Shown piece by piece: positions 7,338 through 32,992 of a stretch of 34,601 nt of DNA. Within the stretch, counting starts at the first letter, position 1; each line of letters begins with the position of its first letter. A program made the translations under genes and the position numbers. The stretch lies in contig JAJDAH010000132.1 of NCBI GenBank assembly GCA_029261965.1, positions 1 to 34,601 on the forward strand. Direction: 5' to 3'. This DNA is from Polyangiaceae bacterium (GTDB taxonomy: Bacteria; Myxococcota_A; Polyangia; Polyangiales; Polyangiaceae). Below the pieces are notes generated by a model. It did no database searches and was not told the DNA's origin. It was given only the letters and a program-made list of their open reading frames with translations.

Positions 7338-7607
7338 ATGCCTTTGGAAACCGAAGCAACGGCGGGTGTCGTCAAGACCCACCGGCTTCACGAGACCGAC
7401 ACCGGTTCGCCGGAAGTGCAGATCGCGCTGCTCACGCACCGCATCACGTACCTCACCGAGCACTTCAAGACACACAAGAAGGACCACCACTCGCGGCGAG
7501 GGCTCCTGAAGCTCGTCAGTCGCAGGCGGCGTCTTCTGAATTACCTCAAGCGCTCGGACGTCGGGCGCTATCGACAGATCGTCTCTACCCTCAAGCTACG
7601 CAAGTAG
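7338..7607 (+). CDS. rpsO: 30S ribosomal protein S15
   Basis: S15 is a primary binder of 16S rRNA that organises the central domain of the small subunit. The 89-residue product is full length, with the family blocks [26 protein letters not shown] and [11 protein letters not shown]. The ATG at 7338 follows a purine-rich stretch and a strong promoter. pnp lies 156 bases downstream in the same direction, the classic rpsO-pnp arrangement, so the two are probably co-transcribed with processing in between. Confidence 0.98.
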
Positions 7608-7623
7608 GGCAGGGATACCAACG

Positions 7624-7683
7624 AGCGCGGACGCGCTGAGCTTCAACTTCGTTTCGCGCGCACTACCCCCCGAAGAGTAGTGC
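7624..7683 (+). promoter_or_regulatory. Two hairpins in the rpsO-pnp spacer
   Basis: The first is a 14-base palindrome, AGCGCGGACGCGCT (7624-7637). The second has seven-base arms GCACTAC (7660-7666) and GTAGTGC (7677-7683) around a ten-base loop. Neither is followed by a T tract, so they do not look like intrinsic terminators. In E. coli the pnp leader contains an RNase III-cut stem through which PNPase represses itself; a similar processing or autoregulatory role here is an inference from position. Confidence 0.45.
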
Positions 7684-7763
7684 ACGGGAATCGAGGGTGA
7701 AGACCCGTTTCCGCGCTCAACGTCACGCCGCACGCAGCGGCTCAGCGCCGGGAGCGCAACAAC

Positions 7764-10034
7764 ATGTTCGTTAGAGAATCCGTCAAGGTGGGCGGAAAGC
7801 AGCTCACCTTCGAAACGGGCCGTTTGGCCAAACAAGCCCACGGCTCGATCCTCATCACCTGCGAGGACAGCGTCGTCCTCGTCACCGCCGTCTCCACTTC
7901 GGAGCGTCCACACCTCGATTTTTTCCCGCTGACCTGTGAGTACGTCGAAAAGACCTACGCCGCTGGTCGCATTCCGGGTGGCTTTTTCAAGCGCGAAGCG
8001 CGACAGCGCGATCACGAAATCCTGACTTGCCGGATCATGGATCGGCCACTCCGTCCGCTTTTTCCCAAAGGGTACAAGAAGGACACCCAAGTCATCGCGA
8101 CCGTCATGAGCGCGGACCAGGTCAACCCGACCGACATGCTGGCACTGTGCGGCGCAAGCGCTGCGCTCTCGATCAGTGACATTCCTTGGGCCGGCCCCAT
8201 CGCTGGCATTCGTGTCGCCCGGGTGGACGGAGAGCTCATCGCCCTGCCGACGTTCGAGCAGAGCGAAAAGGCCGATATCGACCTCGTCGTTGCCGTCAGC
8301 AAAGACGCCATCGTGATGGTCGAAGGCATGGCGGACGAGGCGACTGAGAAGGACATCATCGACGCCTTGATGTTCGCCCACGAGCAGGGTCAGCCAGTCA
8401 TCCAACTCATCCAGAAAATGCGAGAGGCCGTCGGCAAGCCGAAGCGTGAGTTCTCGGTTCCCGAGCTCGACGCCGACATCGCCAAAACGATCGCGGACAT
8501 TGCCGACGCTCCGTTCGCCAAGGCGTGTGTGATCAAAGAGAAACACGCTCGATACGACGCCTACAGCGAGATCAAAGCGGACGTCATGGCCAAGCTCGCC
8601 GAGAGCCTCGGCGAGGACAAGCTCGCCGACGTCGAGAAGCTGGTCAAAGGTGAGATCGAGCACCGCAAGGCGGTCGTCGTGCGAAAGATGGTGCTCGACA
8701 CCGGCAAGCGCATCGATGGACGCGACACGAGCACCATTCGCCCGATCCTTTGCGAGGTCGGTCTTTTGCCGCGTTGCCATGGCTCGGGCCTTTTCCAACG
8801 GGGCGAGACCCAAGCCATCGTCACCACGACTCTCGGCACGGCGCGAGAAGAGCAGAAGCTCGACGCCCTCACCGGCGAGAGCTGGAAGCGCTTCATGCTC
8901 CACTACAACTTCCCACCTTTCTGCACGGGGGAGACGAAGCCACTGCGCGGACCCGGTCGTCGGGAGATCGGCCACGGCACGCTCGCCGAGCGCGCGATCG
9001 CGCGGATGATGCCGTCGAAGGAAGACTTTCCGTACACGGTGCGCATCGTGAGCGAAGTGCTCGAGTCGAACGGCTCGAGCTCGATGGCGTCGGTTTGCGG
9101 CGGGATCCTGAGCCTGATGGATTGCGGCGTGCCGATTCGTGGACCGGTAGCGGGCATCGCGATGGGGCTCATCGCCGACGGCGACAAGGTGGCTATCCTC
9201 AGCGACATCTTGGGCGACGAGGACCACCTCGGCGACATGGACTTCAAGGTTTGTGGCAGCGAGAAGGGCATCACCGCCATCCAGATGGACATCAAGATAG
9301 CCGGTCTCGAGCGGGCGGTTCTCGAGCGAGCGCTCGAGCAGGCGCGCGAGGGGCGCTCGCACATTCTCGGCAAGATGCTCGAGGTATTGCCGACACCGCG
9401 TGAGGAGCTCAACCGCTGGGCGCCTCGCATCACGAGCGTCAAGGTCAAGCCGGACCAGATCCGGATCATCATCGGACCGGGTGGCAAGACCATCAAGGGC
9501 ATCGTCGAGCAGACGGGAGCCCAAATCGACGTCGAGGACGACGGCACCGTGAACATCGCTTCGAGCGACTCCGAGTCCGTCAAGAAAGCCCTGGAGATCG
9601 TCGAAGGTTTGACCGCGGAGCCCGAAGTCGGCGTGACCTACAAGGGCACCATTCGGCGCATCGTCGACTTCGGCGCATTCGTCGAGATCTTGCCGAACTG
9701 CGAGGCTCTCCTCCACGTGTCCGAGATCGCCCACAGTCGAGTCGAGCGGGTCGAGGACGTGCTGACAGAAGGCGAGCAGATCGAGGTCAAGGTTCTGAGT
9801 GTCGAGCGCGACGGAAAGATTCGTCTTTCGCGGAGAGCCCTGTTGCCTCCGCCCCCCGAAGGCGAGCGGCCGCCGAGCGACGGCGGTGGCGGCGGACGGG
9901 GCGGTAGCGGCGGCGGGCACGGCGGCGGTGGTCGTGGCGGTCGTGGCGGTAGCGGCGGTCGCGGTGGCGGCGATCGCGGGCGCCGCGGTGGCGGCGGCGG
10001 CACTGGCGGTCCTCCGCGCCAGCGTCGGGACTGA
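7764..10034 (+). CDS. pnp: Polyribonucleotide nucleotidyltransferase (PNPase)
   Basis: PNPase is the phosphorolytic 3'-5' exoribonuclease of the RNA degradosome and can also add tails. The 756-residue protein has two RNase PH-like domains (first from about 12, second from about 310), a KH domain around IRIIIGPGGKTIKGI, and an S1 domain beginning near VTYKGTIRRIVDFGAFVEI. Motifs in the catalytic second PH domain include FQRGETQA and LGDEDHLGDMDFKV. The ATG at 7764 follows a GGGAG ribosome-binding stretch. From about residue 700 the protein runs into an unusual glycine-rich tail with many RGG/GGRGG units, ending PRQRRD, absent from the E. coli enzyme. Such RGG tails commonly bind RNA. A lipoprotein gene starts seven bases after the stop. 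Confidence 0.98.
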   Translation: MFVRESVKVGGKQLTFETGRLAKQAHGSILITCEDSVVLVTAVSTSERPHLDFFPLTCEYVEKTYAAGRIPGGFFKREARQRDHEILTCRIMDRPLRPLFPKGYKKDTQVIATVMSADQVNPTDMLALCGASAALSISDIPWAGPIAGIRVARVDGELIALPTFEQSEKADIDLVVAVSKDAIVMVEGMADEATEKDIIDALMFAHEQGQPVIQLIQKMREAVGKPKREFSVPELDADIAKTIADIADAPFAKACVIKEKHARYDAYSEIKADVMAKLAESLGEDKLADVEKLVKGEIEHRKAVVVRKMVLDTGKRIDGRDTSTIRPILCEVGLLPRCHGSGLFQRGETQAIVTTTLGTAREEQKLDALTGESWKRFMLHYNFPPFCTGETKPLRGPGRREIGHGTLAERAIARMMPSKEDFPYTVRIVSEVLESNGSSSMASVCGGILSLMDCGVPIRGPVAGIAMGLIADGDKVAILSDILGDEDHLGDMDFKVCGSEKGITAIQMDIKIAGLERAVLERALEQAREGRSHILGKMLEVLPTPREELNRWAPRITSVKVKPDQIRIIIGPGGKTIKGIVEQTGAQIDVEDDGTVNIASSDSESVKKALEIVEGLTAEPEVGVTYKGTIRRIVDFGAFVEILPNCEALLHVSEIAHSRVERVEDVLTEGEQIEVKVLSVERDGKIRLSRRALLPPPPEGERPPSDGGGGGRGGSGGGHGGGGRGGRGGSGGRGGGDRGRRGGGGGTGGPPRQRRD

Positions 10035-10041
10035 CCATCCG

Positions 10042-10590
10042 ATGCTGGCTCGACTGCCCTCACGGCTGACTCGACCGCGCCCACGGCTGACTCGACCGCG
10101 AGCGGCCATCTTGGGTTTGTTCGGTGCTCTAGGCTGCACCAAAGCCGTCACGGTCCCAGCGCACATCATCCTGTTCGACGACGACGGAGCCACCTCCGCC
10201 GTCGTCGAGCAATGCGCCTTGCCCGGTGAGCTCCCGCTCTGCCCGCCGGAGCTCGAATCGACCGATCTCGAGACCGTCGCCAGCACCAAGTCGGCTCTCG
10301 AAGGCACGACGGTGACCGCCACTGGCAAGCTCGTCGCGGTGTACCGCGCCGGCGAAGACAGCGCGGCGGGGGCGCCTTCGGACATCTACCTTGGATCGGC
10401 CGGCCTCGAGATCACCGCCTTCGAGTCGAACTCGTGGAAGGACCGTGGTCTTCGCGTCGGAGAGTACACCTGCGCGGGTGACCGCCAGGCGCAGTGTTGC
10501 CCGTTCGAGCTCGGCAGCCTCGTCGTCACGACGGCCACCATGAGCGAAGGCGTGCTCACCGACGCTTCGTTCTGCCTCCCGGCGCAGTGA
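10042..10590 (+). CDS. Putative small lipoprotein, function unknown
   Basis: I do not recognise this 182-residue protein. The N-terminus has an arginine-rich n-region (residues 1-20), a short hydrophobic stretch AAILGLFGALG and a cysteine, which resembles a lipoprotein signal although the lipobox (ALGC) is imperfect. The mature part has a beta-rich pattern around GTTVTATGKLVAVY and DIYLGSAGLEITAF, and several cysteines including a CC pair, suggesting an exported, possibly OB-like small domain; that fold idea is a guess. It starts seven bases after the pnp stop and so is likely co-transcribed. Its stop lies 18 bases from the convergent larE stop. Start choice is uncertain because the n-region comes from a 21-base tandem duplication. 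Confidence 0.6.
   Translation: MLARLPSRLTRPRPRLTRPRAAILGLFGALGCTKAVTVPAHIILFDDDGATSAVVEQCALPGELPLCPPELESTDLETVASTKSALEGTTVTATGKLVAVYRAGEDSAAGAPSDIYLGSAGLEITAFESNSWKDRGLRVGEYTCAGDRQAQCCPFELGSLVVTTATMSEGVLTDASFCLPAQ
10061..10102 (+). repeat. 21-bp tandem duplication in the signal-peptide region
   Basis: Two adjacent 21-base units, 10061-10081 and 10082-10102, share their first 19 bases (CACGGCTGACTCGACCGCG). They encode the repeated RLTRPRP/RLTRPRA in the n-region of the lipoprotein signal. The unit length keeps the reading frame, so the duplication lengthens the positive n-region without breaking the gene. Confidence 0.85.
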
Positions 10591-14219: not shown

Positions 14220-17200
14220 ATGTTTACCGAGCTGCTCGGCCGCTCTTGCTTCTCATTTCTTCGCGGAGCGTCCCAACCAGAAGAAATGGTCGACCGCGCC
14301 AGCGAGCTCGATCTCGATGCCATCGCGCTTTGTGATCGCGATGGCCTCTACGGATCAGCGAGAGCGTTCACTCGGTCGAAAGAAACCGGCCAGCGCGTCG
14401 TGGTGGGTGCCGAGCTGACTCTGGCCCATCCGGGTGAATCCGTCTCCCGTGACCGCGCGTGGAAGGCCTCTTCGAGCAAAAAAAAGAGTGAGCCAGAGCG
14501 GCCAGTGCTCTGTCTGCTCGCTGAGGATCACGCGGGATATACCAACCTCTGCAAGCTGCTGACACTCTCCCACGGAGGATTGCCCAAGGGGGAGTGCTTA
14601 CTCGAGCTCGACTTTCTCGCTGCGCACTCGAGAGGGCTGGTTGCCGTCATTCCTGTGGATGTGCTTGCTAGCCATCGGAAAGAGGAAGGGGCCGGGAGTC
14701 TCGGCCGAAGCGAAGTCCGGGAAGTGCTCGCCAGGGTTCGTGACGTTTTTGGCGACCGCGCTTTCATCGGAGTCAGCCGTCATCGTGATGGATACGATGG
14801 TGCGCGCAATGCCGTAGCGATGCACCACTGGCGGCGCTTCGGCCTGGACATCGTCGCCAGTGCTCGACCGCTCTTTCATCATCGCTCCCGAAAGCCGCTG
14901 GCCGATGTCGTGCATTGCATCCGGGAAGGAACCACTCTCGATCGAGCCGGCACGGCGCTAGCGGGTAACGCCGAGGCGTATCTTCGTTCTGAGAAGCAAA
15001 TGCGCGAGATCTTCGCCGAGCACCCACGATGGGTCGATCGAGCCGGGGAGGTGGGGGAGAGGCTTCGTTTCGACCTCGGCGAGCTCGAGTATCAGTTTCC
15101 TTGCGAGCTCGAAGCGGGTCAAACCGCGGACGGGACGCTGAGAAAGCTCACCGAGCAGGGGTTGCGCCGTCGCTACCCCGAGGGCGCTTCAGAAAGTGTC
15201 CGTCGTCAGGTCGAAAAAGAGCTCACGCTCATCGCGAAGCTGGGGGTGGCGCCCTACTTCTTGAGCACTCACGAGATCGTAGAAATTGCTCGGGAGAAGC
15301 GCATCCTTTGCCAAGGTCGTGGCAGTGCCGCCAACAGCGCCGTTTGTTACGCTCTCGGCATTACTGCTGTCGATCCGGCGCGTTCGAATCTCCTGTTCGA
15401 GAGGTTCATGAGCGCCGAGCGTTCCGAGCCGCCAGACATCGACATTGACTTCGAGCACGAGCGCCGAGAAGAGGTCATCCAAGAAATCTATGCTCGCTAC
15501 GGTCGTGATCGGGCGGCGATGGTGAGCGAGATCATCTCCTATCGAGGCAAGAGCGCTCTCAGAGAAACTGGAAAAACTTTCGGCCTGTCTCTCGAACAGA
15601 TCGATCGATTGTCGGGCAGTATCACCCACTGGGACAGCGCGGAGGTCAGCGACAAGCGCCTGAAGGACTACGGTTTCGACATCGAGGATGCCCGACTGCG
15701 GCAAACGGTGATGCTCGCCCGTGCTCTCGAGGGGTTTCCTCGGCACTTGTCGATTCACGTTGGTGGCTTCGTGCTGAGCGCCGCGCCTCTGAACGAGGTC
15801 GCGCCGGTCGAGCCGGCTCGTCGGGAAGATCGCACGGTCATCCCTTGGGACAAGGATGACCTGGAAGTGCTTGGTTTTTTCAAGGTCGACGTCTTGGGGC
15901 TCGGCATGCTCACGGCGATCCGCAAGAGCTTGGAGCTCGTGCACGAATGCGGAGGGTTGCAGAACAAGCCAACGGAGTCGGTGAAGTCGGCGGGGACCAG
16001 TGAGCCTTTCGATCCGCTCGATGTGATCACTCGCGTTCCTGCGGAAGAGTCAGCCGTGTACGAGATGATCTCTCGAGCAGACACCATCGGCGTATTTCAG
16101 ATCGAGAGCCGCGCCCAGATGTCGATGCTTCCGCGCCTGCGCCCGGCTCGGTTCTACGACCTCGTCATCGAGGTGGCGATCGTGCGGCCGGGCCCCATCC
16201 AGGGGGGCATGGTGCATCCGTTCTTGCGACGAAGAAACGGCGAAGAGCACATCACTTCGCCGCATCCCGACCTGTGGCCCATTCTGGAGCGCACTTTGGG
16301 CGTGCCGCTATTTCAAGAGCAGGTGATGCAGATCTCGATCGTCGGCGCTGGATACTCCGGCGGACAGGCCGACCAACTTCGCCGGGACATGGCGGCGTGG
16401 AAAAAAAATGGGCGTCTGATGCGGCATCGCGATCGACTGTTGGACGGGTTCGCGAACAAAGGCATCAGCCGGAAGTTCGGGGAAGCTCTGTTCGAGCAAA
16501 TCAAGGGTTTTGGCGACTACGGTTTTCCCGAATCCCACGCGGCGTCGTTTGCGCTGCTGGTCTATTCCTCGTCATGGCTCAAGGCGCACTACCCGGCGCA
16601 CTTCACCTGCGCGCTCATCAACTCGCAGCCGATGGGATTTTACTCCGTCTCGACGCTGCTTCGTGACGCCCAGAAACACGGGGTCGAGGTGCGTGACGTG
16701 AGCATCGTGCACAGCTTTTGGGACTGCACGCTGGAGAAGACGTCGAGCCGTGGGATCGACAGCCGCTTGCCCGGAGCTCAGCGCGCGATACGACTCGGGC
16801 TGCGGTTGGTCAAAGGCCTGGGCGAGGCTCCGGCGCGTGAAATCGAGAGAGCTCGTGCGGAGTCATCGTTTTCCGGGCTGGAGGATCTGATCCGGCGTGC
16901 CCACTTGCACAAGGATCAAGTCGAGGCGCTCGCCGAAGCCGGGGCGCTCGAGGAACTCGTGCCAGGACGTCGACACGCTCTGTGGAAAGCCCGAGCACCG
17001 CGTGTTGGTGGACTGTTCGAACGGCTCGACGTGCGTGAGCCCACGATAAAGTTGCCGGCCCTTCGCAAGAGCGAGCAGCTCCTGCTCGACTACGGGCGGA
17101 AAGGGCTGAGTGTCGACGACCACCCCATGTGTCACTTGAGAGGGAAAATGAAACAGATGGGGGTGGTCACCGCGGAAGAGCTCCAGAGCGTAGAACAAGG

Positions 17201-17534
17201 CAAACCAGTGAAAATGGCTGGAATGGTCTTGTCGAGACAACAGCCGGGGACAGCGAGCGGCGTCGTATTCATCACGCTCGAGGACGAAACGGGTTTCGCC
17301 AACTTGATCCTGTATCGCCGGATCTTCGAAGAGTTTCGACTGACGGCGAGGCACTCGACGCTGATGATGGCGAGCGGAACTGTCGAGCGGCAGGTCACCG
17401 TTCCGAAAACGGATCTTGGTTTCCAGTTCGGAGCGAAAGATGCCGTTGCCATAGTTCATCTGCTCGTGAAAAAGCTCGACCGTCTCGACGTTCCAGGACG
17501 CGACGTCACGAGCACTTCTCGAGACTTTCACTAG
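14220..17534 (+). CDS. dnaE2: Error-prone DNA polymerase DnaE2
   Basis: DnaE2 is the C-family polymerase that copies past DNA damage with ImuA and ImuB. The 1104-residue protein has an N-terminal PHP domain starting FTELLGRSCFSFLRGAS, where the histidines of an active PHP site (LHCHS in DnaE1) are replaced, as is common in DnaE2. The palm carries GRGSAANSAVCYALG (367-381) and the catalytic acids in PDIDIDFEHERR (405-416). IGVFQIESRAQMSMLPRLRP is the DnaE2-type finger block. GDYGFPESHAASFALLVY follows, and an OB-fold lies near the C-terminus (AGMVLSRQQPGTASGVVFI). Length is normal for DnaE2 and shorter than replicative DnaE1. The ATG is 18 bases after imuB. A GTTCAGG stands at 14212-14218 just before it, but I see no full operator there. 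Confidence 0.96.
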   Translation: MFTELLGRSCFSFLRGASQPEEMVDRASELDLDAIALCDRDGLYGSARAFTRSKETGQRVVVGAELTLAHPGESVSRDRAWKASSSKKKSEPERPVLCLLAEDHAGYTNLCKLLTLSHGGLPKGECLLELDFLAAHSRGLVAVIPVDVLASHRKEEGAGSLGRSEVREVLARVRDVFGDRAFIGVSRHRDGYDGARNAVAMHHWRRFGLDIVASARPLFHHRSRKPLADVVHCIREGTTLDRAGTALAGNAEAYLRSEKQMREIFAEHPRWVDRAGEVGERLRFDLGELEYQFPCELEAGQTADGTLRKLTEQGLRRRYPEGASESVRRQVEKELTLIAKLGVAPYFLSTHEIVEIAREKRILCQGRGSAANSAVCYALGITAVDPARSNLLFERFMSAERSEPPDIDIDFEHERREEVIQEIYARYGRDRAAMVSEIISYRGKSALRETGKTFGLSLEQIDRLSGSITHWDSAEVSDKRLKDYGFDIEDARLRQTVMLARALEGFPRHLSIHVGGFVLSAAPLNEVAPVEPARREDRTVIPWDKDDLEVLGFFKVDVLGLGMLTAIRKSLELVHECGGLQNKPTESVKSAGTSEPFDPLDVITRVPAEESAVYEMISRADTIGVFQIESRAQMSMLPRLRPARFYDLVIEVAIVRPGPIQGGMVHPFLRRRNGEEHITSPHPDLWPILERTLGVPLFQEQVMQISIVGAGYSGGQADQLRRDMAAWKKNGRLMRHRDRLLDGFANKGISRKFGEALFEQIKGFGDYGFPESHAASFALLVYSSSWLKAHYPAHFTCALINSQPMGFYSVSTLLRDAQKHGVEVRDVSIVHSFWDCTLEKTSSRGIDSRLPGAQRAIRLGLRLVKGLGEAPAREIERARAESSFSGLEDLIRRAHLHKDQVEALAEAGALEELVPGRRHALWKARAPRVGGLFERLDVREPTIKLPALRKSEQLLLDYGRKGLSVDDHPMCHLRGKMKQMGVVTAEELQSVEQGKPVKMAGMVLSRQQPGTASGVVFITLEDETGFANLILYRRIFEEFRLTARHSTLMMASGTVERQVTVPKTDLGFQFGAKDAVAIVHLLVKKLDRLDVPGRDVTSTSRDFH

Positions 17535-17672: not shown

Positions 17673-17772
17673 AGCCGACGAGGCGCCGCGCCCTTGACCG
17701 CGCGGTGGCGTTCGGCATGCTTGCGCTCTTGGGTTGCGCCGCGAGCACGATGAACACTTAGCCGAGGATGTC

Positions 17773-19155
17773 ATGAAGAAGCTTCACCTGAATGAGCTCA
17801 CTGCCCTGTCGTTGCTCCTGCCGCTCGTCGGTCTCGCCCCGCTCGCTTGTTCGAGCGACGACGCGGAGACTCCCGACGTTTCCAGGAAGTCTTCGGCGGT
17901 TCAGATCGCTGGGAACGCCGGGTGCACGGTCGAGCTCACGAAGTTCAGCTACAACGACCCAGGATCCGACGACGAGGAGTTCATCGAGCTTCAGGTCACC
18001 GCCACCGGCGGTCCAATCCCCGCGACTCTCGGCGCGTGTGGTCTCGATGCCATCAACCTCGTCGAAGGAAGCCCCGGCTGCGGTATCGATGCCGTCATCC
18101 CGCTGGCGACGACCCCCATACCTGGCGACGGGTACGTCGTCATTTGCGCGGGCAACGCCGGTTGTGACGTCAACATGGACAGCAACGGACCGCTCACGAA
18201 TGGCTGGCTCGAGAACGGCACGGACATCATTCAATCCTTCGGGGGTGGGTTTCCGCTTCTCGACATCATCTACGGCGGTACGACGGCCTGTGGGACGGCG
18301 CCGCGCATGGTGCGGGCCGCGACGGAGAGTCCACCGCCGGCCACGCCCGGAGCCGAGGACGACATCAACACTTGGTGCCCGAACCCCACCGGACCAAACG
18401 GTGGACAATTCGAGCTTCATCCCGAAAGCCAAGAGCCCCGCCGTCAACCCAACGACTGCAGCGTGCCCGGATCTGGCGGGGCAGGCGGTATGGGTGGCGC
18501 GGCCGGCAGTGCAGGCGCCGGCGGGGTTGCGGGGGCTGCTGGCACAGGAGCCGGCGGTGTAGGGACCGGTGGCGCGGCCGGGAGTGCGGGTGCGGGCGTG
18601 GGCGGCGCCGGAGTCGGCGGCGCGGCGGGCGTGGGTGGTACCGGAGTCGGCGGCGCGGCGGGCGTGGGTGGTGCCGGAGTCGGCGGCGCGGCGGGCGTGG
18701 GCGGCACTCCAGGTGGTGCTGGCGGCACGAGCGGCAGCTCCGGCGCAGCGGGCACGAGCGGCGCGGCAGGAGCTGGAGGCGGTGCGGCAGGCGGTGCGGC
18801 AGGCGGGGCGGCGGGCAGCGCTGGCGCCGCTTCCGGAGGAGCCGCGGGTTCGGCGGGAGCGGGAACCGGCGGAGCGGCGACGGGTGGGACCGGCGCGACG
18901 GGCACAGGCGGAGCCGCGACCGGAGGAGCCGGCGGCACGGGCGGCGGCACGAGCACCGGAGGGACGGGTGCTTCTGCGACGGGCGGCACGAGCTCGGGCA
19001 TGGCCGGGTCGGCTGGCGCACCGGCCTCGGATTCCGGCGACACCGGTGGGTGCAGCTGCGCGACTCCCGGGACCCAGGCCCCGAAGAGCTCAGGTCTCAT
19101 TGCCCTGTTGGGACTAGGCCTCGTCGGCGCTCGCAGGCGTCGCCGTAGTCGCTGA
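17773..19155 (+). CDS. Surface lipoprotein with lamin-tail-like domain, Gly/Ala-rich stalk and MYXO-CTERM-like end
   Basis: The 460-residue product begins MKKLHLNEL and has a lipoprotein signal with lipobox PLAC and Cys26. Residues about 50-175 resemble a lamin-tail (LTD) type beta domain: an early ELTKFSYNDPGSDDEEFIEL, a middle GLDAINLVEG, and then PIPGDGYVVICAGNAGC, with several cysteines. From about 234 to 425 it is almost pure Gly/Ala with Val, Thr and Ser. The end reads GCSCATPG, then a short hydrophobic stretch (GLIALLGLGLVGA) and RRRRRSR, which is the MYXO-CTERM sorting pattern. Having both an N-terminal lipobox and a C-terminal sorting signal is notable. The start at 17773 was chosen for its signal peptide; an in-frame start at 17734 gives an implausible charged leader. 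A terminator follows. Function is unknown, probably cell-surface display. Confidence 0.8.
   Translation: MKKLHLNELTALSLLLPLVGLAPLACSSDDAETPDVSRKSSAVQIAGNAGCTVELTKFSYNDPGSDDEEFIELQVTATGGPIPATLGACGLDAINLVEGSPGCGIDAVIPLATTPIPGDGYVVICAGNAGCDVNMDSNGPLTNGWLENGTDIIQSFGGGFPLLDIIYGGTTACGTAPRMVRAATESPPPATPGAEDDINTWCPNPTGPNGGQFELHPESQEPRRQPNDCSVPGSGGAGGMGGAAGSAGAGGVAGAAGTGAGGVGTGGAAGSAGAGVGGAGVGGAAGVGGTGVGGAAGVGGAGVGGAAGVGGTPGGAGGTSGSSGAAGTSGAAGAGGGAAGGAAGGAAGSAGAASGGAAGSAGAGTGGAATGGTGATGTGGAATGGAGGTGGGTSTGGTGASATGGTSSGMAGSAGAPASDSGDTGGCSCATPGTQAPKSSGLIALLGLGLVGARRRRRSR
18610..18708 (+). repeat. Three 33-bp tandem repeats encoding GVGGAAGVGGT-type units
   Basis: Units at 18610-18642, 18643-18675 and 18676-18708 each begin GGAGTCGGCGGCGCGG and differ at only a few third positions near their ends. 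They encode 11-residue Gly/Ala/Val units in the stalk of the surface lipoprotein. The surrounding 18480-19020 stretch is more loosely repetitive. Such in-frame units can change copy number by slippage. Confidence 0.9.
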
Positions 19156-23258: not shown

Positions 23259-23579
23259 GTGACTTACGAATACCTGTGCACGGCCTGCAACCACGAATGG
23301 GAAGCAGACCAAAAGATGAGCGAAGCGCCGCTCAAGAAGTGTCCCCGATGCAAGAAGAACAGGGCGCGTCGGCAGGTTTCCGGCGGCCAAGGGTTCATTC
23401 TGAAGGGTGGGGGGTGGTACGCGGACGGCTACGCCTCGAGCAGCGGCAGCGACGAATCGTCGGCCGACTCGAAGTCGAAGGACTCGAAGTCGACCAGCAA
23501 GAAAAGCGACGACACGACGACGAAGAAAACAGAGACCGAGAGCGAGCCTGCGGCGAAGAAAAAGGAAGCCTCCGCCTAA
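23259..23579 (+). CDS. FmdB-family zinc ribbon protein
   Basis: FmdB-type proteins are small zinc ribbons annotated as putative regulators; their role is generally unknown. The 106-residue product begins MTYEYLCTACNHEWE with cysteines C7, C10, C28 and C31 in two CxxC pairs that should bind one zinc. The core ends with FILKGGGWYADGY, the characteristic FmdB block. The rest (about 65-106) is a low-complexity tail of Lys, Ser, Thr, Asp and Glu. GTG at 23259 is the start because it gives exactly the family N-terminus; no Shine-Dalgarno sequence precedes it, and TAAAGT ends nine bases upstream, so the message may be leaderless. pheA-like follows after 49 bases in the same direction. Confidence 0.88.
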   Translation: MTYEYLCTACNHEWEADQKMSEAPLKKCPRCKKNRARRQVSGGQGFILKGGGWYADGYASSSGSDESSADSKSKDSKSTSKKSDDTTTKKTETESEPAAKKKEASA

Positions 23580-23628: not shown

Positions 23629-24699
23629 ATGGCTGACAAGAAGCGGGAGCTGAGCGAGCTGCGTCAGAAGGCGACCGAGATCGATCTCGGCATTTTGAAG
23701 CAGCTCGAGGCCCGAGCGAAGATTTCGCGGGAAGTGCACGCGCTGCTCGAGGGGGAGTCCGGCGTCGTGGACACCGGCGAGCGGGACTGGTTGTCGGCGC
23801 TCGCCGAGGCCTCGTCAGGTGAGCTGCCGATCGACAGCGTCAGAGCAATCTTTCGGCAGGTGCGCGCCGAAGGGCGCGCGATCGAGCAGCCGGCCCGGGT
23901 CGCCTACCTCGGCCCCGAGGGGTCGTTCTGCCACGAGGTGGCACGCGAATACTTCGGGGGCACGACTCCGTTCACCGAGTCGGCGACGGTGGCGGCCGTG
24001 CTCGACGAGGTGGCGCGAGAACGAGCCGTGTACGCGGTGTTTCCTTTCGAGTCATCGGTGGACGGTCTCGTGCAGCCCTCGATCACGGCGCTCGCGCAAA
24101 CCGATCTCGTACTGGTGGCGGAACGGGTCGTGCCCGCGACCTACGCGCTCATGTGCCGAACGGGCAACGCCAAGGACATCGACAAGGTCTACGCGACGCC
24201 GATTGCGCATGCTGCTTGCGAGCGATTCTTGGGAAGCGAGTTGCCGCGCGCGACCGTGCTCGACGTTCGATCGCCATTGGTCGCCGCCCAGCTCGCGTCG
24301 GAAGACCACGGCGGCGCTGCCGTGGTGCCGGAGACTTCGGGTCGCTTGGTCGATCTGAAGCCCGTCCAGGCGAACATCGGCGACGAACCGGACCTGCAGT
24401 TCCGCTACGGCGTGGCGAGCGCCCGACCCGCGAGCCGCTCGGGCAAGGACACGACGTGCCTGTTGTTCAGCGTGGACGATTCGCCCGGAGCGCTGTTCGA
24501 CGTGCTCAAGCACTTCGCCGAGCGGGGCATCAACCTCAAGAAGCTTCAGTCACGTCCAGCGCAGGGCGAAGGTTGGGACTACGTCTTCTACGTCGAGGTC
24601 ACCGGGCACGTCACGGATCGCCCCGTAGTGACCGCACTGGAAGCCGTCAAAAGATCCACGAAATACCTCAAGGTTCTCGGATCGTTCCCGACGTCCTGA
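23629..24699 (+). CDS. pheA: PheA-like chorismate mutase/prephenate dehydratase/ACT protein with eroded active sites
   Basis: The layout is that of the bifunctional P-protein of phenylalanine synthesis: AroQ-type helical domain (1-88), prephenate dehydratase domain (about 90-265, with VAYLGPEGSFCHEVA) and ACT domain (about 275-356, with SPGALFDVL). Compared with the E. coli protein from memory, catalytic positions are changed. In the mutase, Lys39 and Arg51 become Leu40 and Gly50. In the dehydratase, PIENT becomes PFESS (139-143), YSHPQ becomes YATPI (188-192), and TRF becomes FRY (258-260). The ACT motif ESRP is QSRP (307-310). The ATG follows GGGGAG, a good ribosome-binding site. Next to hisC and aroA it clearly belongs to aromatic metabolism, but it may be a sensor or have altered chemistry. 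The gene name reflects homology, not proven activity. Confidence 0.8.
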   Translation: MADKKRELSELRQKATEIDLGILKQLEARAKISREVHALLEGESGVVDTGERDWLSALAEASSGELPIDSVRAIFRQVRAEGRAIEQPARVAYLGPEGSFCHEVAREYFGGTTPFTESATVAAVLDEVARERAVYAVFPFESSVDGLVQPSITALAQTDLVLVAERVVPATYALMCRTGNAKDIDKVYATPIAHAACERFLGSELPRATVLDVRSPLVAAQLASEDHGGAAVVPETSGRLVDLKPVQANIGDEPDLQFRYGVASARPASRSGKDTTCLLFSVDDSPGALFDVLKHFAERGINLKKLQSRPAQGEGWDYVFYVEVTGHVTDRPVVTALEAVKRSTKYLKVLGSFPTS

Positions 24700-24736: not shown

Positions 24737-25813
24737 GTGAGTCGCTGGGTTACCGATACGATCGAAGAGCTTCGGCCCTACGTTGCCGGCAAACCGGTAG
24801 AGGAGCTGGCGCGCGAGCTCGGCATCACCGACGCCATCAAGTTAGCGTCGAACGAGAACCCGCTTGGACCGAGTCCGAAGGCGATCGAGGCAGCGCGTTC
24901 GGTCCTTCGAGAAGTCCACCGTTACCCCGACGCCGCGTACTACACGTTCCGCGAGCGATTGGCGGAGTTTCATGGCGTCGAGATGAACGACATCGTGGCC
25001 GGCAACGGTTCCAACGAGCTCATCGACCTGCTGATTCGTACCTTCACGACCGGCGAGCACCACGTGGTGTTCGCCGATCCGTCGTTCGTCGTCTACAAGC
25101 TGAGCTCGATGGCGCACGGCGTGCCGTTCACGGCGGTGCCCCTCACGGACTTGACTCACGACGTCGACAAGTTGCTCGCAGCCGTGAGGCCCGAGACGCG
25201 CCTGCTGTTCGTCGCGAACCCGAACAACCCGACGGGCACCCACGTTGGGCGTGCGGCAGTCGAGAAGCTGCTTCGTGAAGCTCCCGAGCACGTGATCGTC
25301 GTGATGGACGAAGCGTACATTCAGTATGCGGACGCGGACGATTACCCCGATTCCCTCGAGCTTCGCGGATTGCGAGAGCACCTCGTCGTGCTGCGTACGT
25401 TTTCGAAGGTGTACGGGCTTGCGGCGATGCGCATCGGATACGGCGTGGCACCCTCGACGATAGTCGGTTATCTCGACCGCGTGCGCGCTCCGTTCAACCT
25501 CAACATCGTGGGTCAGGCCGCAGCGCTGGCCGCCCTCGGGGACGAACAGCACGTGCACCGAAGCGTGGAGATGAACGGGGCGGAGCGACGGCGCCTGCTC
25601 GCCGAGTTGCCGCCCCTCGGGCTGGCCGTAGCGCCGAGCCAGGCGAACTTCGTCTACGCCGACTTGGGTCGCCCTGCCGGGCAGATCTACGATGCTTTGC
25701 TGAAAAAGGGCGTCATCGTGCGCGTCGTTGGGCCGACGAGCGTTCGGATTACCGTCGGCACACCAAAAGAGAACGATCGGCTGCTCGAAACTCTTCCGGG
25801 GGTGTTGTCGTGA
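24737..25813 (+). CDS. hisC: Histidinol-phosphate/aromatic aminotransferase (HisC family, PLP-dependent)
   Basis: HisC-family enzymes transfer amino groups with pyridoxal phosphate. The 358-residue protein has SNENPLGPSP (38-47), AGNGSNELIDLL (88-99), NPNNPTGTHVG (161-171), MDEAYIQY (190-197) and the cofactor lysine Lys224 in RTFSKVYGLAAMRIGY. The C-terminal block is VRVVGPTSVRITVGTPKEND. The start GTG at 24737 lies 37 bases after the pheA-like stop. Sequence alone does not separate histidinol phosphate from aromatic keto-acid substrates. The neighbours (PheA-like, AroA) make a role in phenylalanine/tyrosine transamination likely, as several HisC paralogues do this, and no other his gene is nearby. 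The stop overlaps the next gene by four bases. Confidence 0.88.
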   Translation: MSRWVTDTIEELRPYVAGKPVEELARELGITDAIKLASNENPLGPSPKAIEAARSVLREVHRYPDAAYYTFRERLAEFHGVEMNDIVAGNGSNELIDLLIRTFTTGEHHVVFADPSFVVYKLSSMAHGVPFTAVPLTDLTHDVDKLLAAVRPETRLLFVANPNNPTGTHVGRAAVEKLLREAPEHVIVVMDEAYIQYADADDYPDSLELRGLREHLVVLRTFSKVYGLAAMRIGYGVAPSTIVGYLDRVRAPFNLNIVGQAAALAALGDEQHVHRSVEMNGAERRRLLAELPPLGLAVAPSQANFVYADLGRPAGQIYDALLKKGVIVRVVGPTSVRITVGTPKENDRLLETLPGVLS

Positions 25814-26847
25814 AAGGCTGGCTTCGCGTCGTCGCGGTGGTGGCGACCCTAGCCGTGCCTTTGTCGTGTTCGAAGAAGAACGAAGTCATCGTCAAGACCG
25901 TCGACGGCATGAGCCTCAACGAAGAAGACATCGATCGCGATCCCACGGCGCTTTTGCCGAGCGGTGTCATTGGTCTTGCGGCGCTGAATGGCCCACAGCT
26001 CTTCCAATCGCAGTTCGGTCAGCAACTCCTCGCTCTTCTGCGCACTCGCGCGCCAATTCCCGCCGGGGCGGGGTTCGATCCTCAGCGGGATTTGCAAAAG
26101 GTCCTCATTGGCTTCTATTCGATGCAGGGCGCCGACGCCGTGGCGATTGCCACCGGGACGTTCAACCCGAAGGCGATCGAGGACGCCGCCGACGGAACGA
26201 CTCAGACTCCGCTCGGCGCCCCACTCGTCAAGCAAAAGTACGCCGGTCGCACGATGTATCTGTCTCGAAACGTGGGGTTCGTGGTGATCACGAAACGCAC
26301 CGTCATTCTGGGCAACGAAACGGCGATTCGTCGGGTGCTCGACCGCATCGAGGAGGGACGGGTAAAAAGGGCGATCCCGCCATGGTGGGACGAGTTTGCG
26401 TCGAAACAAACTGCACCGCTGTACGCCGGTGCGGACTTCACCGGGAACCCACTCCTCGGACCGAATACCGACGAGCTGCCCTTTCTCGAGGGCGTGCAGA
26501 AGATGCAGATCGTGGGAACGTTCCAGCCGCCTGGCATTCACGCGACGGGAACGCTGACCTCCGCGTCCGCGGACGCGGCCACGGCGGGCGCGGCGTCGCT
26601 GCTCCGAATGCACAAGACGATTTCTCAATGGGGATTTTTGGCGGCTCTGGTTGGTCTCGCGCAGCCCGTGAGGACTCTCCAAGCCGTGCCGCACGCCAGT
26701 GACGTCAACATCTCGGCCACCATCGAGGGCGCGGGCGTCGCCACCCTTCTCGAATATCTCGCCAAGAAGGCTGCGGAAGGTCCGATCGCCGTTCCCGCCG
26801 GCCCCCCGACAGCCGTTCCGCCCCTTCCGCCGGCGCCTCCGCAGTGA
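25810..26847 (+). CDS. Envelope lipoprotein of unknown function (first of three with a shared layout)
   Basis: I do not recognise a named family. The 345-residue product has a clean lipoprotein signal, MKGWLRVVAVVATLAVPLSC, with acylated Cys20. A mature domain follows in which an initial proline-led strand (LLPSGVIGLAAL) precedes a helix (FGQQLLALL). Next come a GFDPQRDLQKV element and a strand ending in a G-x-F turn (AIATGTFNPKAI), then FVVITKRTVILGNE. The same order of elements recurs in the products at 28968 and 29900. The C-terminus is Pro/Ala-rich. GTG 25810 overlaps the hisC stop and the end overlaps aroA by four bases, so it is embedded in the aromatic operon and translated with it. 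It probably sits in the periplasm or outer membrane; a link to aromatic synthesis is not evident. Confidence 0.75.
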   Translation: MKGWLRVVAVVATLAVPLSCSKKNEVIVKTVDGMSLNEEDIDRDPTALLPSGVIGLAALNGPQLFQSQFGQQLLALLRTRAPIPAGAGFDPQRDLQKVLIGFYSMQGADAVAIATGTFNPKAIEDAADGTTQTPLGAPLVKQKYAGRTMYLSRNVGFVVITKRTVILGNETAIRRVLDRIEEGRVKRAIPPWWDEFASKQTAPLYAGADFTGNPLLGPNTDELPFLEGVQKMQIVGTFQPPGIHATGTLTSASADAATAGAASLLRMHKTISQWGFLAALVGLAQPVRTLQAVPHASDVNISATIEGAGVATLLEYLAKKAAEGPIAVPAGPPTAVPPLPPAPPQ

Positions 26848-28196
26848 CGTCCGTCGTCGTTCGGCCCGCACGAAAACCACTCGTCGGAAGCGTCCCGCTG
26901 CCGAGCGACAAGAGCATCGGGCATCGCGCGGTGATCTTCGCCGCGTTGTCTGCCGGCGACTGTGAGCTCCGCCGCTTTTCCGGTGGGGAAGACAACGTCG
27001 CGACGGTCAACGCTTTTCGCTCGCTCGGTGTCGAGATCGAACAGGTCGGAGAGAACGTCCTTCGATGCTCCGGTGTGGGCCTCGACGGCCTGCGGGGGTC
27101 TTTGGGAGCGCTCGATTGCGGCAACTCGGGCACCACGATGCGGCTCTTGTGCGGTGTGCTCGCCGGCCAGCACTTCGAGTCGACGTTGGTGGGGGATGCT
27201 TCGCTGTCCAAGCGACCGATGCTCCGAGTGGCCAAACCTCTGCGGTCGCGCGGCGGGGTGTTGGAAGGCGAGCCACACCCGACGCGCTCCGGAGACATCA
27301 CCGCGCCGCTCAGAGTCGGCGCGTTGGCGGAGGGCGAACGGCTCGCTCCGCTGGACTACGAGAGTCCAATCGCGAGCGCCCAGGTGAAGAGTGCTCTGTT
27401 GTTTTCCGGCTTGTTCGCCTCCGGCCCCACCTCGGTGCAGGAGCCCGTCGTTTCTCGCGACCACACCGAGCGAATGATGTCGGCGCTGTCGATGCCCATC
27501 GAGTCGGCCGGGCCCATCGTACGACTCCACCCGCCGGCCGATCCGAAGGCGATCCGGCGCTTCGACGTCGATCTCCCTGGGGATCTCTCGGCGGCCGCGT
27601 TTCTTCTCGTCGCCGCACAGCTCGTCGAGGGGAGCGCGGTGACGACTCGCGCTACGGGACTCAATCCGACGCGCGCGGGGATCCTCGAAGCGATCCGGCA
27701 TTTTGGGGGCCAGACGGACATCCAGCCCCAGGGCGATGCGCTCGGAGAGCCGTTTGGTGAGGTCACGGGACGTCACGCCGAGCTCGCCGGCGCGACGATC
27801 GCGGGGGAGCTCGTGGTGCGCGCCATCGACGAGATCCCGATCGCCTGCGCGCTCGGCGCCCGGGCCCGCGGGCAATCGGCGTTTCTGGACATCGGTGAGC
27901 TGCGTGTGAAAGAAAGCGACCGGGTCGCCACGATGGCTTCCGTGTTGCGGTCGTTCGGCGTCGAAGTGGAAGAACACGAAGCGGCGCTGGTGGTCGAGGG
28001 TCGCCCCGATCGCCCCCTGACGGCGTGCCGAATCGATGCGGCCCACGACCATCGAATCGCCATGACCGCCGCCGTGCTCGGTCTAGTGGCGGACGGAGAG
28101 ACAACGATCACGGGGGCAGACGTCATCGCCACGAGCTTTCCTCGCTTCGTGGGTACGCTGCGGGCACTCGGTGCCGAGATCGAGGTGCGGTCGTGA
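26844..28196 (+). CDS. aroA: 3-phosphoshikimate 1-carboxyvinyltransferase (EPSP synthase)
   Basis: AroA joins shikimate-3-phosphate and phosphoenolpyruvate in the sixth step of the shikimate pathway. The 450-residue protein has the substrate-binding LPSDKSIGHRA (19-29, Lys23), the PEP-site loop CGNSGTTMRLL (92-102), GDASLSKRPMLR, the acidic catalytic blocks AIDEIPIACA and RVKESDRVATM, and HDHRIAMTAAVLG. The SLSKRPM block and overall pattern resemble the Bacillus-type rather than the E. coli-type branch. Its GTG start overlaps the preceding lipoprotein stop. cmk follows, as in many bacteria where aroA-cmk-rpsA are linked. Identification is secure; subclass is my reading of motifs. Confidence 0.97.
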   Translation: MTSVVVRPARKPLVGSVPLPSDKSIGHRAVIFAALSAGDCELRRFSGGEDNVATVNAFRSLGVEIEQVGENVLRCSGVGLDGLRGSLGALDCGNSGTTMRLLCGVLAGQHFESTLVGDASLSKRPMLRVAKPLRSRGGVLEGEPHPTRSGDITAPLRVGALAEGERLAPLDYESPIASAQVKSALLFSGLFASGPTSVQEPVVSRDHTERMMSALSMPIESAGPIVRLHPPADPKAIRRFDVDLPGDLSAAAFLLVAAQLVEGSAVTTRATGLNPTRAGILEAIRHFGGQTDIQPQGDALGEPFGEVTGRHAELAGATIAGELVVRAIDEIPIACALGARARGQSAFLDIGELRVKESDRVATMASVLRSFGVEVEEHEAALVVEGRPDRPLTACRIDAAHDHRIAMTAAVLGLVADGETTITGADVIATSFPRFVGTLRALGAEIEVRS

Positions 28197-28239
28197 GGCG
28201 CTGCGGGCGAGCCGCTCTCGAATGCCCGGGGCCGCAGCG

Positions 28240-28962
28240 ATGACGGCTGAGCGAGCGCGCCCCGTGGTGGCCATCGATGGGCCCGCCGGCGCAGGCAAGA
28301 GCACCGTCTCGCGGCGCGTCGCCGTTCGGCTCGGTTATACGCTCGTCGATACTGGAGCTCTCTACCGCTCGGTGGCGCTCGCTGCGAAACAGGCCGACGC
28401 CTCTTGGGACGATTCCGAAGCGGTCGGCCGAATTGCCGCCGATCTCGCAGAGCGTGGGGCGATCGAGCTCCGTCCGCTGTCCGATGGCGGCGTCAGCGTT
28501 TGGCTCGACGCTCGGGACGTGTCGCGAGCCATTCGCGCCCAGGACGTTGGCCAAGGAGCGAGCAAGGTGAGCGCTGTCCCCGCCGTGCGCGACGCGTTGC
28601 TCGAAATGCAGCGCGCCGCCGGTCGTGACGGTGGGGTCGTCTTGGAGGGCCGAGACATAGGATCGGTCGTTTTCCCCGACGCCGAAGTGAAGTTTTTTCT
28701 CACCGCGAGCGTCGGCGTCCGAGCGGGAAGGCGGTTCGACGAGCTTCGCGGGAGAGGCGAACCGGCCGACCGCGAACAAATTGAACGCGAGGTGAAAGAG
28801 AGAGACGAGCGGGACAGCTCGCGGGCAGCCGCTCCGTTGGTGCAGCCGCCGGATGCGGAGCTCGTCGACAGCTCGGAGCTGTCGATCGAGGGCGTGGTCG
28901 ATCGAATGGTGCGGAGGGTTCGGGAGGTCGCCGAAGCGATGCAGCGACCAGCAGGCGGTTGA
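28240..28962 (+). CDS. cmk: Cytidylate kinase
   Basis: Cmk phosphorylates CMP and dCMP. The product from ATG 28240 has 240 residues with P-loop GPAGAGKST (14-22), DTGALYRSVAL, the nucleotide-binding GRDIGSVVFPDAEVKFFLTA and the lid-region RDERDSSRAAAPL, all typical. An in-frame ATG at 28222 would add six residues, and neither start has a clear ribosome-binding site, so the exact start is uncertain. aroA ends 43 bases before 28240. In many Proteobacteria cmk is followed directly by rpsA; here two envelope protein genes are inserted between them, the first starting five bases after the cmk stop. Confidence 0.95.
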   Translation: MTAERARPVVAIDGPAGAGKSTVSRRVAVRLGYTLVDTGALYRSVALAAKQADASWDDSEAVGRIAADLAERGAIELRPLSDGGVSVWLDARDVSRAIRAQDVGQGASKVSAVPAVRDALLEMQRAAGRDGGVVLEGRDIGSVVFPDAEVKFFLTASVGVRAGRRFDELRGRGEPADREQIEREVKERDERDSSRAAAPLVQPPDAELVDSSELSIEGVVDRMVRRVREVAEAMQRPAGG

Positions 28963-30938: not shown

Positions 30939-30967
30939 TTGACGCGAAGCAGCCTGTGCGCTACCTG
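30939..30967 (+). promoter_or_regulatory. Candidate sigma-70-type promoter of rpsA
   Basis: TTGACG (30939-30944) and TACCTG (30962-30967) are 17 bases apart. The first hexamer matches the consensus at five of six positions, the second less well. Transcription would start near 30974, giving a leader of about 100 bases before the rpsA ATG at 31076. The 183-base gap before rpsA supports an independent promoter, expected for a highly expressed ribosomal protein. Confidence 0.5.
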
Positions 30968-30974
30968 AGCGCGT

Positions 30975-31011
30975 CCCGGCGCGGGCTGGGGGCGATACGG
31001 GCTCGTTTTTT
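30975..31011 (+). promoter_or_regulatory. Possible attenuator in the rpsA leader
   Basis: CCCG (30975-30978) can pair with CGGG at 30982-30985 or with CGGG at 30998-31001. The second option places a stem five bases before a run of six T (31006-31011). Alternative pairing before a T run is the pattern of an attenuator, but the stems are only four pairs long, so this is weak. S1 is known to repress its own synthesis through the rpsA leader in E. coli. Confidence 0.22.
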
Positions 31012-31075
31012 CCGCACGATCCCCGCGGCCCCCCGAGCGTCCGCAACGGGTGAAACAGGAAGGGCTTCTACATCC

Positions 31076-32992
<1,917 letters not shown>

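Follow-up and report, generated by a model that had tools for sequence, protein, structure and literature searches.

The gene in the pheA position of an aromatic-pathway supraoperon in a Polyangiaceae bacterium, here called pheX, is best explained as the supraoperon PheA of its order turned non-catalytic, ACT-bearing amino-acid sensor, a reading to which we assign a probability of roughly 60%. We favor it because pheX and its orthologues have lost active-site residues and in some genomes a whole lobe of the prephenate dehydratase (PDT) domain, because the ACT domain is kept and coding constraint persists, and because the score of pheX falls below the cut-off of the PDT equivalog family. The features are located (Table 1) in the window, that is, the whole stretch of 34,601 nucleotides that was analyzed.

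Table 1. Coordinates of pheX, its parts and its neighbors in the window, and of two further PDT genes on contig C266. The border between the PDT lobes was set from natural deletions in orthologues.
Feature	Position	Strand	Basis or remark
pheX, P-protein homologue, CM-PDT-ACT, 356 aa	23629..24699	+	AlphaFold2 mean pLDDT 91.3
Degenerate AroQ chorismate-mutase-like helical domain, aa 11-86	23659..23886	+	PF01817 below cut-off; Arg12 and Arg29 kept, Leu40 for Lys39
PDT lobe 1, first part, aa 89-165	23893..24123	+	PF00800 match aa 91-264
Ser142 replacing ENS Asn	24052..24054	+	Alignment
PDT lobe 2, aa 166-245	24124..24363	+	Stretch deleted in orthologues of G019, G058, G078, G017, G010, G052
Ala-Thr-Pro-Ile (189-192) replacing SHPQ	24193..24204	+	Alignment
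PDT lobe 1 return segment, aa 246-266	24364..24426	+	PF00800 match; natural deletions
Phe258 replacing TRF Thr	24400..24402	+	Alignment; Thr174 column of GqqA
ACT domain, aa 270-355	24436..24693	+	Clade-specific Arg270, Arg299, Glu323, Thr329, Arg331, basic 341/345
FmdB-type zinc-ribbon protein, 49 nt upstream of pheX	23259..23579	+	PF09723; 39/48 fetched family loci
HisC-type aminotransferase, starts 37 nt after pheX	24737..25813	+	TIGR01141, 351.7 bits
Putative lipoprotein, downstream	25810..26847	+	No Pfam match; Cys20 invariant in 28 rows
AroA, EPSP synthase	26844..28196	+	TIGR01356
Cytidylate kinase	28171..28962	+	TIGR00017
Ribosomal protein S1-like protein, rpsA slot	30956..32992	+	S1 domains
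PDT-ACT fused ahead of DAHP synthase (DAHP_synth_1) and adjoining canonical CM-PDT	L004 9533-11269, 12365-13441	-	Contig C266

The order of domains in the window's pheX, chorismate mutase (CM), PDT and ACT, is that of the bifunctional P-protein, and the open reading frame, its coordinates and this arrangement are as the original prediction gave them. In Pfam searches the PDT domain scored 121.9 bits and the ACT domain 43.1 bits; the CM domain is weak, with PF01817 at 23.7 bits against a cut-off of 27 (27.0 bits in the genome search). Against the NCBIfam PDT equivalog, with its cut-off of 219 bits, pheX reached 188.9 bits, the Sorangium cellulosum orthologue (L204) 137.4 bits and an orthologue lacking one PDT lobe (L261) 74.4 bits. 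The closest fold to the pheX model is that of an L-Phe-inhibited PDT (2qmx; Z 28.9, rmsd 2.4, 264 residues). Structure searches with Foldseek and VIA-align ranked PDTs first for the full-length protein, with general PBP-like folds below, and for the full-length and lobe-deleted forms alike they gave no match hinting at another function.

PMC1173090 gives the ancestral supraoperon as aroQ-pheA > hisH > tyrA > aroF > cmk > rpsA, where we have taken aroF as EPSP synthase. The window's gene order resembles this arrangement, with the lipoprotein gene where tyrA would be, and pheX stands in the pheA slot, so that its operon position is kept, as had been proposed. That pheX might control its neighbors was also part of the original prediction, but across the family the neighborhood breaks up while pheX persists: hisC was found in 13 and aroA in 30 of the 48 fetched loci, some of which are cut by contig ends. 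The lipoprotein gene lies downstream of pheX in 43 of these 48 loci (in 29 at a distance of up to 500 nt, in 13 beyond hisC and in 1 further away). It was rejected as a dedicated partner of pheX, since 91 of 98 family genomes carry it, including many that have no pheX. In some further families of the order, weak relatives of this lipoprotein have hisC on one side and aroA on the other. Elsewhere in the window we noted an error-prone DNA polymerase (14220-17534; NF004225, 1278 bits) followed by a MYXO-CTERM domain protein (17734-19155), and, on opposite strands, a pair of long open frames that overlap, 7596-10385 (-) and 7764-10034 (+), of 929 and 756 aa.

The main alignment held 48 pheX rows from the window's family, inferred to be Polyangiaceae (window included), 24 order-level pheX rows, and 44 canonical rows, five of them without a CM domain and a few with an upstream part that is possibly non-coding. 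The family rows stand for 48 of at least 65 family genomes with pheX; of the other 17, G035 entered the 12-genome identity comparison and six more the lobe-deletion comparison given below. Three PDT motifs that we take to be catalytically important, the Asn of ENS, SHPQ and the Thr of TRF, are all intact in the canonical copy of the window's own genome. In pheX all three had been predicted to be replaced, and alignment with canonical copies bears this out; the window's protein reads Phe258-Arg259-Tyr260 at TRF and retains Glu141 and Arg259. The ENS Asn is retained in 0 of 48 family, 0 of 24 order-level and 43 of 44 canonical rows, the SHPQ His in 0/48 (three gaps), 0/24 and 39/44, and the TRF Thr in 0/48, 19/24 and 44/44, respectively. 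Within SHPQ, the Gln is left in six family rows and the Ser in one. This replacement of Asn, His and Thr is not random decay. Position 142 is Ser in 26 family rows and Thr in 22, the TRF Thr column holds Val, Leu, Phe, Met, Ile, Ala or Tyr and is followed by Arg in 48/48, and Glu141, Arg259 and Ser/Thr142 are held in every family row. Judged from these columns, the PDT cleft of pheX probably no longer dehydrates prephenate. Some canonical-type copies may be eroding too, to go by their motifs: the copy in L084 has SKAE at the SHPQ site, and in the copy of L091 the three sites are ESS, GHPH and SA.

For the CM site, where the catalytic residues are presumably Lys39, Arg51, Arg11 and Arg28 in E. 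coli numbering, loss of activity appears less certain than for the PDT. The window's pheX keeps equivalents of Arg11 and Arg28. The original claim that Lys39 and Arg51 had both been replaced stands for Lys39 but depends on the alignment for Arg51, because Arg52 lies two positions past the aligned column and could fill the site if the register moved by one or two residues; allowing for such shifts makes the loss of Arg51, which an unshifted count suggests, uncertain. The Lys39 column holds Lys in 0/48 family and 3/24 order-level rows and Arg in 23/48 and 19/24, while the aligned Arg51 column holds Arg in 0/48 and 4/24, and any Arg at 49-53 is found in 27/48 and 15/24. Four marks were scored jointly, namely Arg12, Arg29, any basic residue at position 40 and an Arg anywhere in 49-53; 9/48 family, 8/24 order-level and 38/39 canonical rows have all of them. 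The GAL motif of the ACT domain is kept, again as predicted: the window reads GAL, and G is found in 46, A in 41 and L in 48 of 48 family rows. The ESRP motif reads QSRP (LQSRP) in the window, with Gln in 37/48 family rows and also in 11/44 canonical rows. Roles for the GAL and IESRP motifs in Phe-responsive ACT domains are described in PMC3828330.

Between species, the catalytic domains of pheX have diverged well beyond those of the canonical enzyme, whereas the ACT domain has not. We compared 12 genomes with a full-length pheX and a full CM-PDT (66 pairs), leaving out those with a lobe-2-less pheX or a CM-less PDT. Identities in pheX versus the canonical copy were 35.6 versus 54.0% for CM, 44.8 versus 62.7% for PDT lobe 1, 37.3 versus 58.3% for lobe 2 and 53.4 versus 55.5% for ACT, so that CM and PDT lie 18-21 points under the canonical copy and ACT only 2. 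For ACT, pheX was better conserved than the canonical copy in 37 of the 66 pairs, against 2 each for CM, lobe 1 and lobe 2. Columns fixed in at least 90% of rows number 24/89 in ACT and 18/262 in CM and PDT for pheX, against 19/89 and 49/262 in canonical rows. Five columns are fixed in pheX and present in at most 25% of canonical rows, all of them in ACT (Arg270, Arg299, Glu323, Thr329 and Arg331), and Arg331 is found in 72/72 pheX rows versus 0/44 canonical rows. Basic residues at 341 and 345 are likewise new. Conversely, 16 columns are fixed in canonical rows and lost in pheX, 15 of them in CM or PDT. The gained ACT columns are not independent, owing to shared descent, but they were held while much of pheX otherwise diverged. 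Whole-gene dN/dS (NG86) was 0.09-0.36 in nine of ten pairs, the tenth being too close, and that of the PDT part was 0.07-0.45; in some pairs, such as L055/L058 and L064/L069, ACT was not the part with the lowest dN/dS. Lobe 1 of the PDT is therefore still under constraint, given its invariant Glu141, Arg259 and Ser/Thr142 and a PDT dN/dS below 1.

Lobe 2 has been lost altogether in six genomes (G019, G058, G078, G017, G010 and G052), where 2 to 7 of the 80 positions in this part of the PDT (approximately 166-245) remain. The first three of these are single-contig genomes in which the deletions are in-frame. On the best tree, built without the deleted columns, lobe-2 loss amounts to three changes, two of them forced by starred branches. 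In G010, a 100% complete genome with no PF00800 match at E 0.001, a pheX remnant sits between smc and the lipoprotein gene; here and in G052 Glu323, Arg331 and the basic residues at 341/345 are kept and Arg299 and Thr329 are not. The deleted form of L261, 270 aa encoded at 6001-6810, has a confidently predicted fold (mean pLDDT 90.4) and superposes on Phe-bound PDTs (3mwb; Z 23.1, rmsd 2.5, 180 residues), and AroQ-like and ACT folds are also among the matches of the lobe-deleted form. Arg259 is retained in 6/6 and Glu141 in 4/6 of the lobe-2-deleted proteins. Both residues are therefore probably structural, as they are still present without a cleft, and the idea that they form a new active site was set aside on the same grounds.

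A second, canonical PDT had been suggested as something to look for in the window's genome, and it was indeed found, with intact residues and an equivalog score of 283.7 bits. This genome (9.6 Mb, 480 contigs, 96.4% complete) carries two more PDT genes together on another contig, one being the canonical CM-PDT and the other a fusion of PDT with DAHP synthase, as well as a separate AroQ chorismate mutase and TyrA. The fusion and the canonical CM-PDT also adjoin in L088 and L179, two other family genomes. We considered whether the canonical enzyme, as a spare copy, had freed pheX to decay; this fits the window's genome but is not general, because a PF00800 search of 98 family genomes gave the pheX locus as the single match in at least 16 (G014, G015, G022, G025, G027, G029, G030, G031, G036, G046, G047, G062, G063, G065, G070 and G083). 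Outside this count stand G017, which is below the cut-off, and G061 and G089, each with one short, unassigned match.

We compared these 16 pheX-only genomes with 16 genomes carrying both genes. TyrA was absent in 8/16 pheX-only genomes and 0/16 both-gene genomes, and five of the eight (G014, G027, G030, G046 and G070) had no CM_2 match besides pheX, a state seen in 0/16 both-gene genomes; G027 had no CM_2 match whatsoever. AroH-type chorismate mutase was found in none of the 32 genomes, and chorismate synthase was found in 31, the exception being G014. Absences in draft genomes can reflect assembly gaps, and among the eight TyrA-less genomes only G031 is a single contig. By gene content, these eight look like Phe/Tyr auxotrophs in which chorismate is mostly still made and pheX is kept. 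Five pheX-only genomes thus have no evident prephenate supply, as they lack TyrA and any other chorismate mutase, whereas the eight that have TyrA and chorismate mutase make prephenate, so pheX could be their dehydratase.

The distribution of pheX and its relatives suggests that these losses were stepwise. The window protein found a match in 82/98 family genomes at E 0.001, canonical paralogues counted in, and pheX itself is present in at least 65 of the 98. Among the best 80 of 148 relatives, orthologues fall in Polyangiaceae, including Sorangium cellulosum, Polyangium, Minicystis rosea and Labilithrix, with more distant ones in Sandaracinaceae. In a tree of 82 rows the family rows, those of family f8 and the order-level slot genes lie on one side of a branch with 99 SH-aLRT, and on the other fall the canonical copies of the family together with pheA genes from the supraoperons of other classes; the trees came from a quick search with SH-aLRT supports and a midpoint root, with L291 and the G010/G052 pair on long branches. 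The 12 supraoperon pheA rows of other classes keep the TRF Thr and the Asn, with the SHPQ His changed to Ile or Asn in a few. Together with the split in the tree, this makes the slot gene look ancestral and the losses stepwise. Asn and His went first, before the sampled order-level clade diversified; Thr followed in the common ancestor of f8 and the window's family, with a second loss in L152, and in some genera lobe 2 disappeared as well. Several family genomes, for example G004 and G042, have a canonical PDT and no pheX was seen in them. Two groups, the order's family f6 with at least 13 genomes and g6, a genus of the window's family with 5, gave no match to the window protein at E 0.001, in a search where canonical PDTs elsewhere do match it, and the five g6 genomes had no PF00800 match either. 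These absences would be compatible with a possible whole-clade loss of phenylalanine synthesis.

Several known systems resemble pheX in part. The supraoperon-type P-protein (PheA) shares its domain order, its fold (2qmx) and its gene slot (pheA-hisC-..-aroA-cmk-rpsA), but pheX differs from it in lacking the PDT Asn, His and Thr, in its degenerate CM site, in the absence of lobe 2 in six genomes, in its new fixed ACT residues and in scores under the NCBIfam equivalog cut-offs. HisZ, the regulatory subunit of ATP phosphoribosyltransferase, derives from histidyl-tRNA synthetase and is an inactive enzyme homologue turned regulator; it works as we propose for pheX, although the families are unrelated. 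B. subtilis AroA(G) has a regulatory domain with a CM-like fold, as in pheX (5go2, Z 11.5), but this domain is fused to DAHP synthase and pheX is not. Regulators with a sensing ACT domain and no working enzyme domain, such as the acetohydroxyacid synthase small subunits (fold match to 2f1f, Z 10.8) and the plant ACR proteins (PMC6081435), are like the proposed pheX in this respect but have a different origin, and pheX carries the remains of two enzyme domains. GqqA of Komagataeibacter europaeus is a PDT homologue with acyl-homoserine-lactone acylase activity that complements E. coli pheA, according to PMC8192741. It shares the PDT-ACT fold of pheX (7am0, Z 27.2), but with 281 aa it is without a CM domain, and it keeps the TRF Thr174. 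In its crystal, as the same paper reports, a subdomain (residues 86-170) was gone by proteolysis, with the rest of the fold unchanged (0.76 A) and L-Phe bound. This form resembles a laboratory copy of the natural pheX deletions, after which the GqqA alignment resumes at its residue 167. Listings of open-licence full texts showed no described P-protein pseudoenzyme, myxobacteria included; subscription papers lie outside this coverage. For a prephenate decarboxylase of the BacA type, such a listing offered no basis in sequence.

Changed chemistry and residual activity are live rivals, and we rank the sensor reading first with moderate confidence. Points that count against it are the constraint still acting on lobe 1, the pairs in which ACT is not the most constrained part, the Gln that replaces the ESRP Glu in the window, and the eight pheX-only genomes that have TyrA. 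If pheX were still an enzyme, its cleft, with Ser/Thr for Asn and a hydrophobic residue for Thr, might act on another substrate, as GqqA does on acyl-homoserine lactones; that enzyme (PMC8192741) shows that the PDT fold can gain a second activity, and the invariance of Glu141 and Arg259, the restriction of position 142 to Ser/Thr and the PDT dN/dS would all suit such a change. Nonetheless, six genomes that still keep the gene have deleted lobe 2, which is half of the cleft, the two invariant residues outlast it, no column of the PDT domain is newly fixed at 90%, and the Thr that GqqA keeps is gone from family pheX. We therefore regard this alternative, which the original prediction had offered beside a phenylalanine-sensing pseudoenzyme, as unlikely overall: it is disfavored by the repeated loss of half the cleft, though it survives for full-length members. 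Somewhat less probable still is a weak residual PDT activity, perhaps with some chorismate mutase activity, sufficient for phenylalanine where pheX is the sole PDT. The 16 or more genomes without another PDT-family gene, eight of them with TyrA, are what one might expect under this explanation, as are the rows in which the four CM marks persist and the 19 order-level rows with the TRF Thr, but it is at odds with the missing prephenate supply in five pheX-only genomes, with the absence of the catalytic Thr throughout the family and with the canonical copy in the window's own genome.

A non-catalytic structural subunit, for example one that stabilizes DAHP synthase or the canonical CM-PDT and uses ACT for oligomerization rather than sensing, seems improbable to us. 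ACT domains do form dimer interfaces, an interface might be what the new charged residues make up, and the CM-like fold resembles that of the B. subtilis DAHP synthase domain; however, conservation of GAL points to ligand binding, and at least 16 bearers of pheX have no canonical PDT to stabilize. As for a decaying pseudogene, eroded sites and domain deletions are its signs, but in the orthologues examined the frames are open, neither frameshifts or stops in many of them nor dN/dS near 1 was seen, ACT is conserved about as in the canonical copy, and the lobe deletions are in-frame in three single-contig genomes, which makes this explanation very improbable. What stands of the predicted phenylalanine-sensing pseudoenzyme is a probably non-catalytic protein with a kept sensory ACT domain, which has good support from conservation, from the lobe deletions and from retention in predicted auxotrophs.

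Under the sensor reading, selection would retain the CM-like helical arm, a scaffold formed by PDT lobe 1, and the ACT dimer. The dimer would most likely bind phenylalanine or a related amino acid, as its GAL and QSRP motifs and its fold suggest, ligand binding would shift the ACT arrangement, and the new charged ACT surface (Arg299, Glu323, Arg331 and basic 341/345) would relay the signal to a partner, for which other aromatic-pathway proteins are candidates. The output of pheX need not be phenylalanine synthesis, since the gene is retained in genomes without TyrA and a canonical PDT. More tentatively, and at a strength that we would put somewhat short of probable, the whole order-level family may consist of non-catalytic sensors of phenylalanine or aromatic amino acids that lost activity stepwise, kept the ACT dimer, gained an invariant charged partner surface and work also where phenylalanine is not synthesized. 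For annotation, pheX can pass for a PDT because it lies above the Pfam PDT cut-off, and pathway predictions may consequently be wrong, with at least 16 of 98 family genomes credited with the enzyme on pheX alone. If the proposal is true, what began as an allosteric feedback domain now acts as a nutrient sensor in its own right. The passage from allosteric enzyme to sensor becomes a testable question through the order of steps on the tree and through the canonical copy that many of these genomes also carry. Nature seems to offer here a graded series from feedback-regulated biosynthetic enzyme to regulator, in which active-site residues are lost one by one and then a catalytic lobe, while the sensing domain is kept and acquires new fixed positions.
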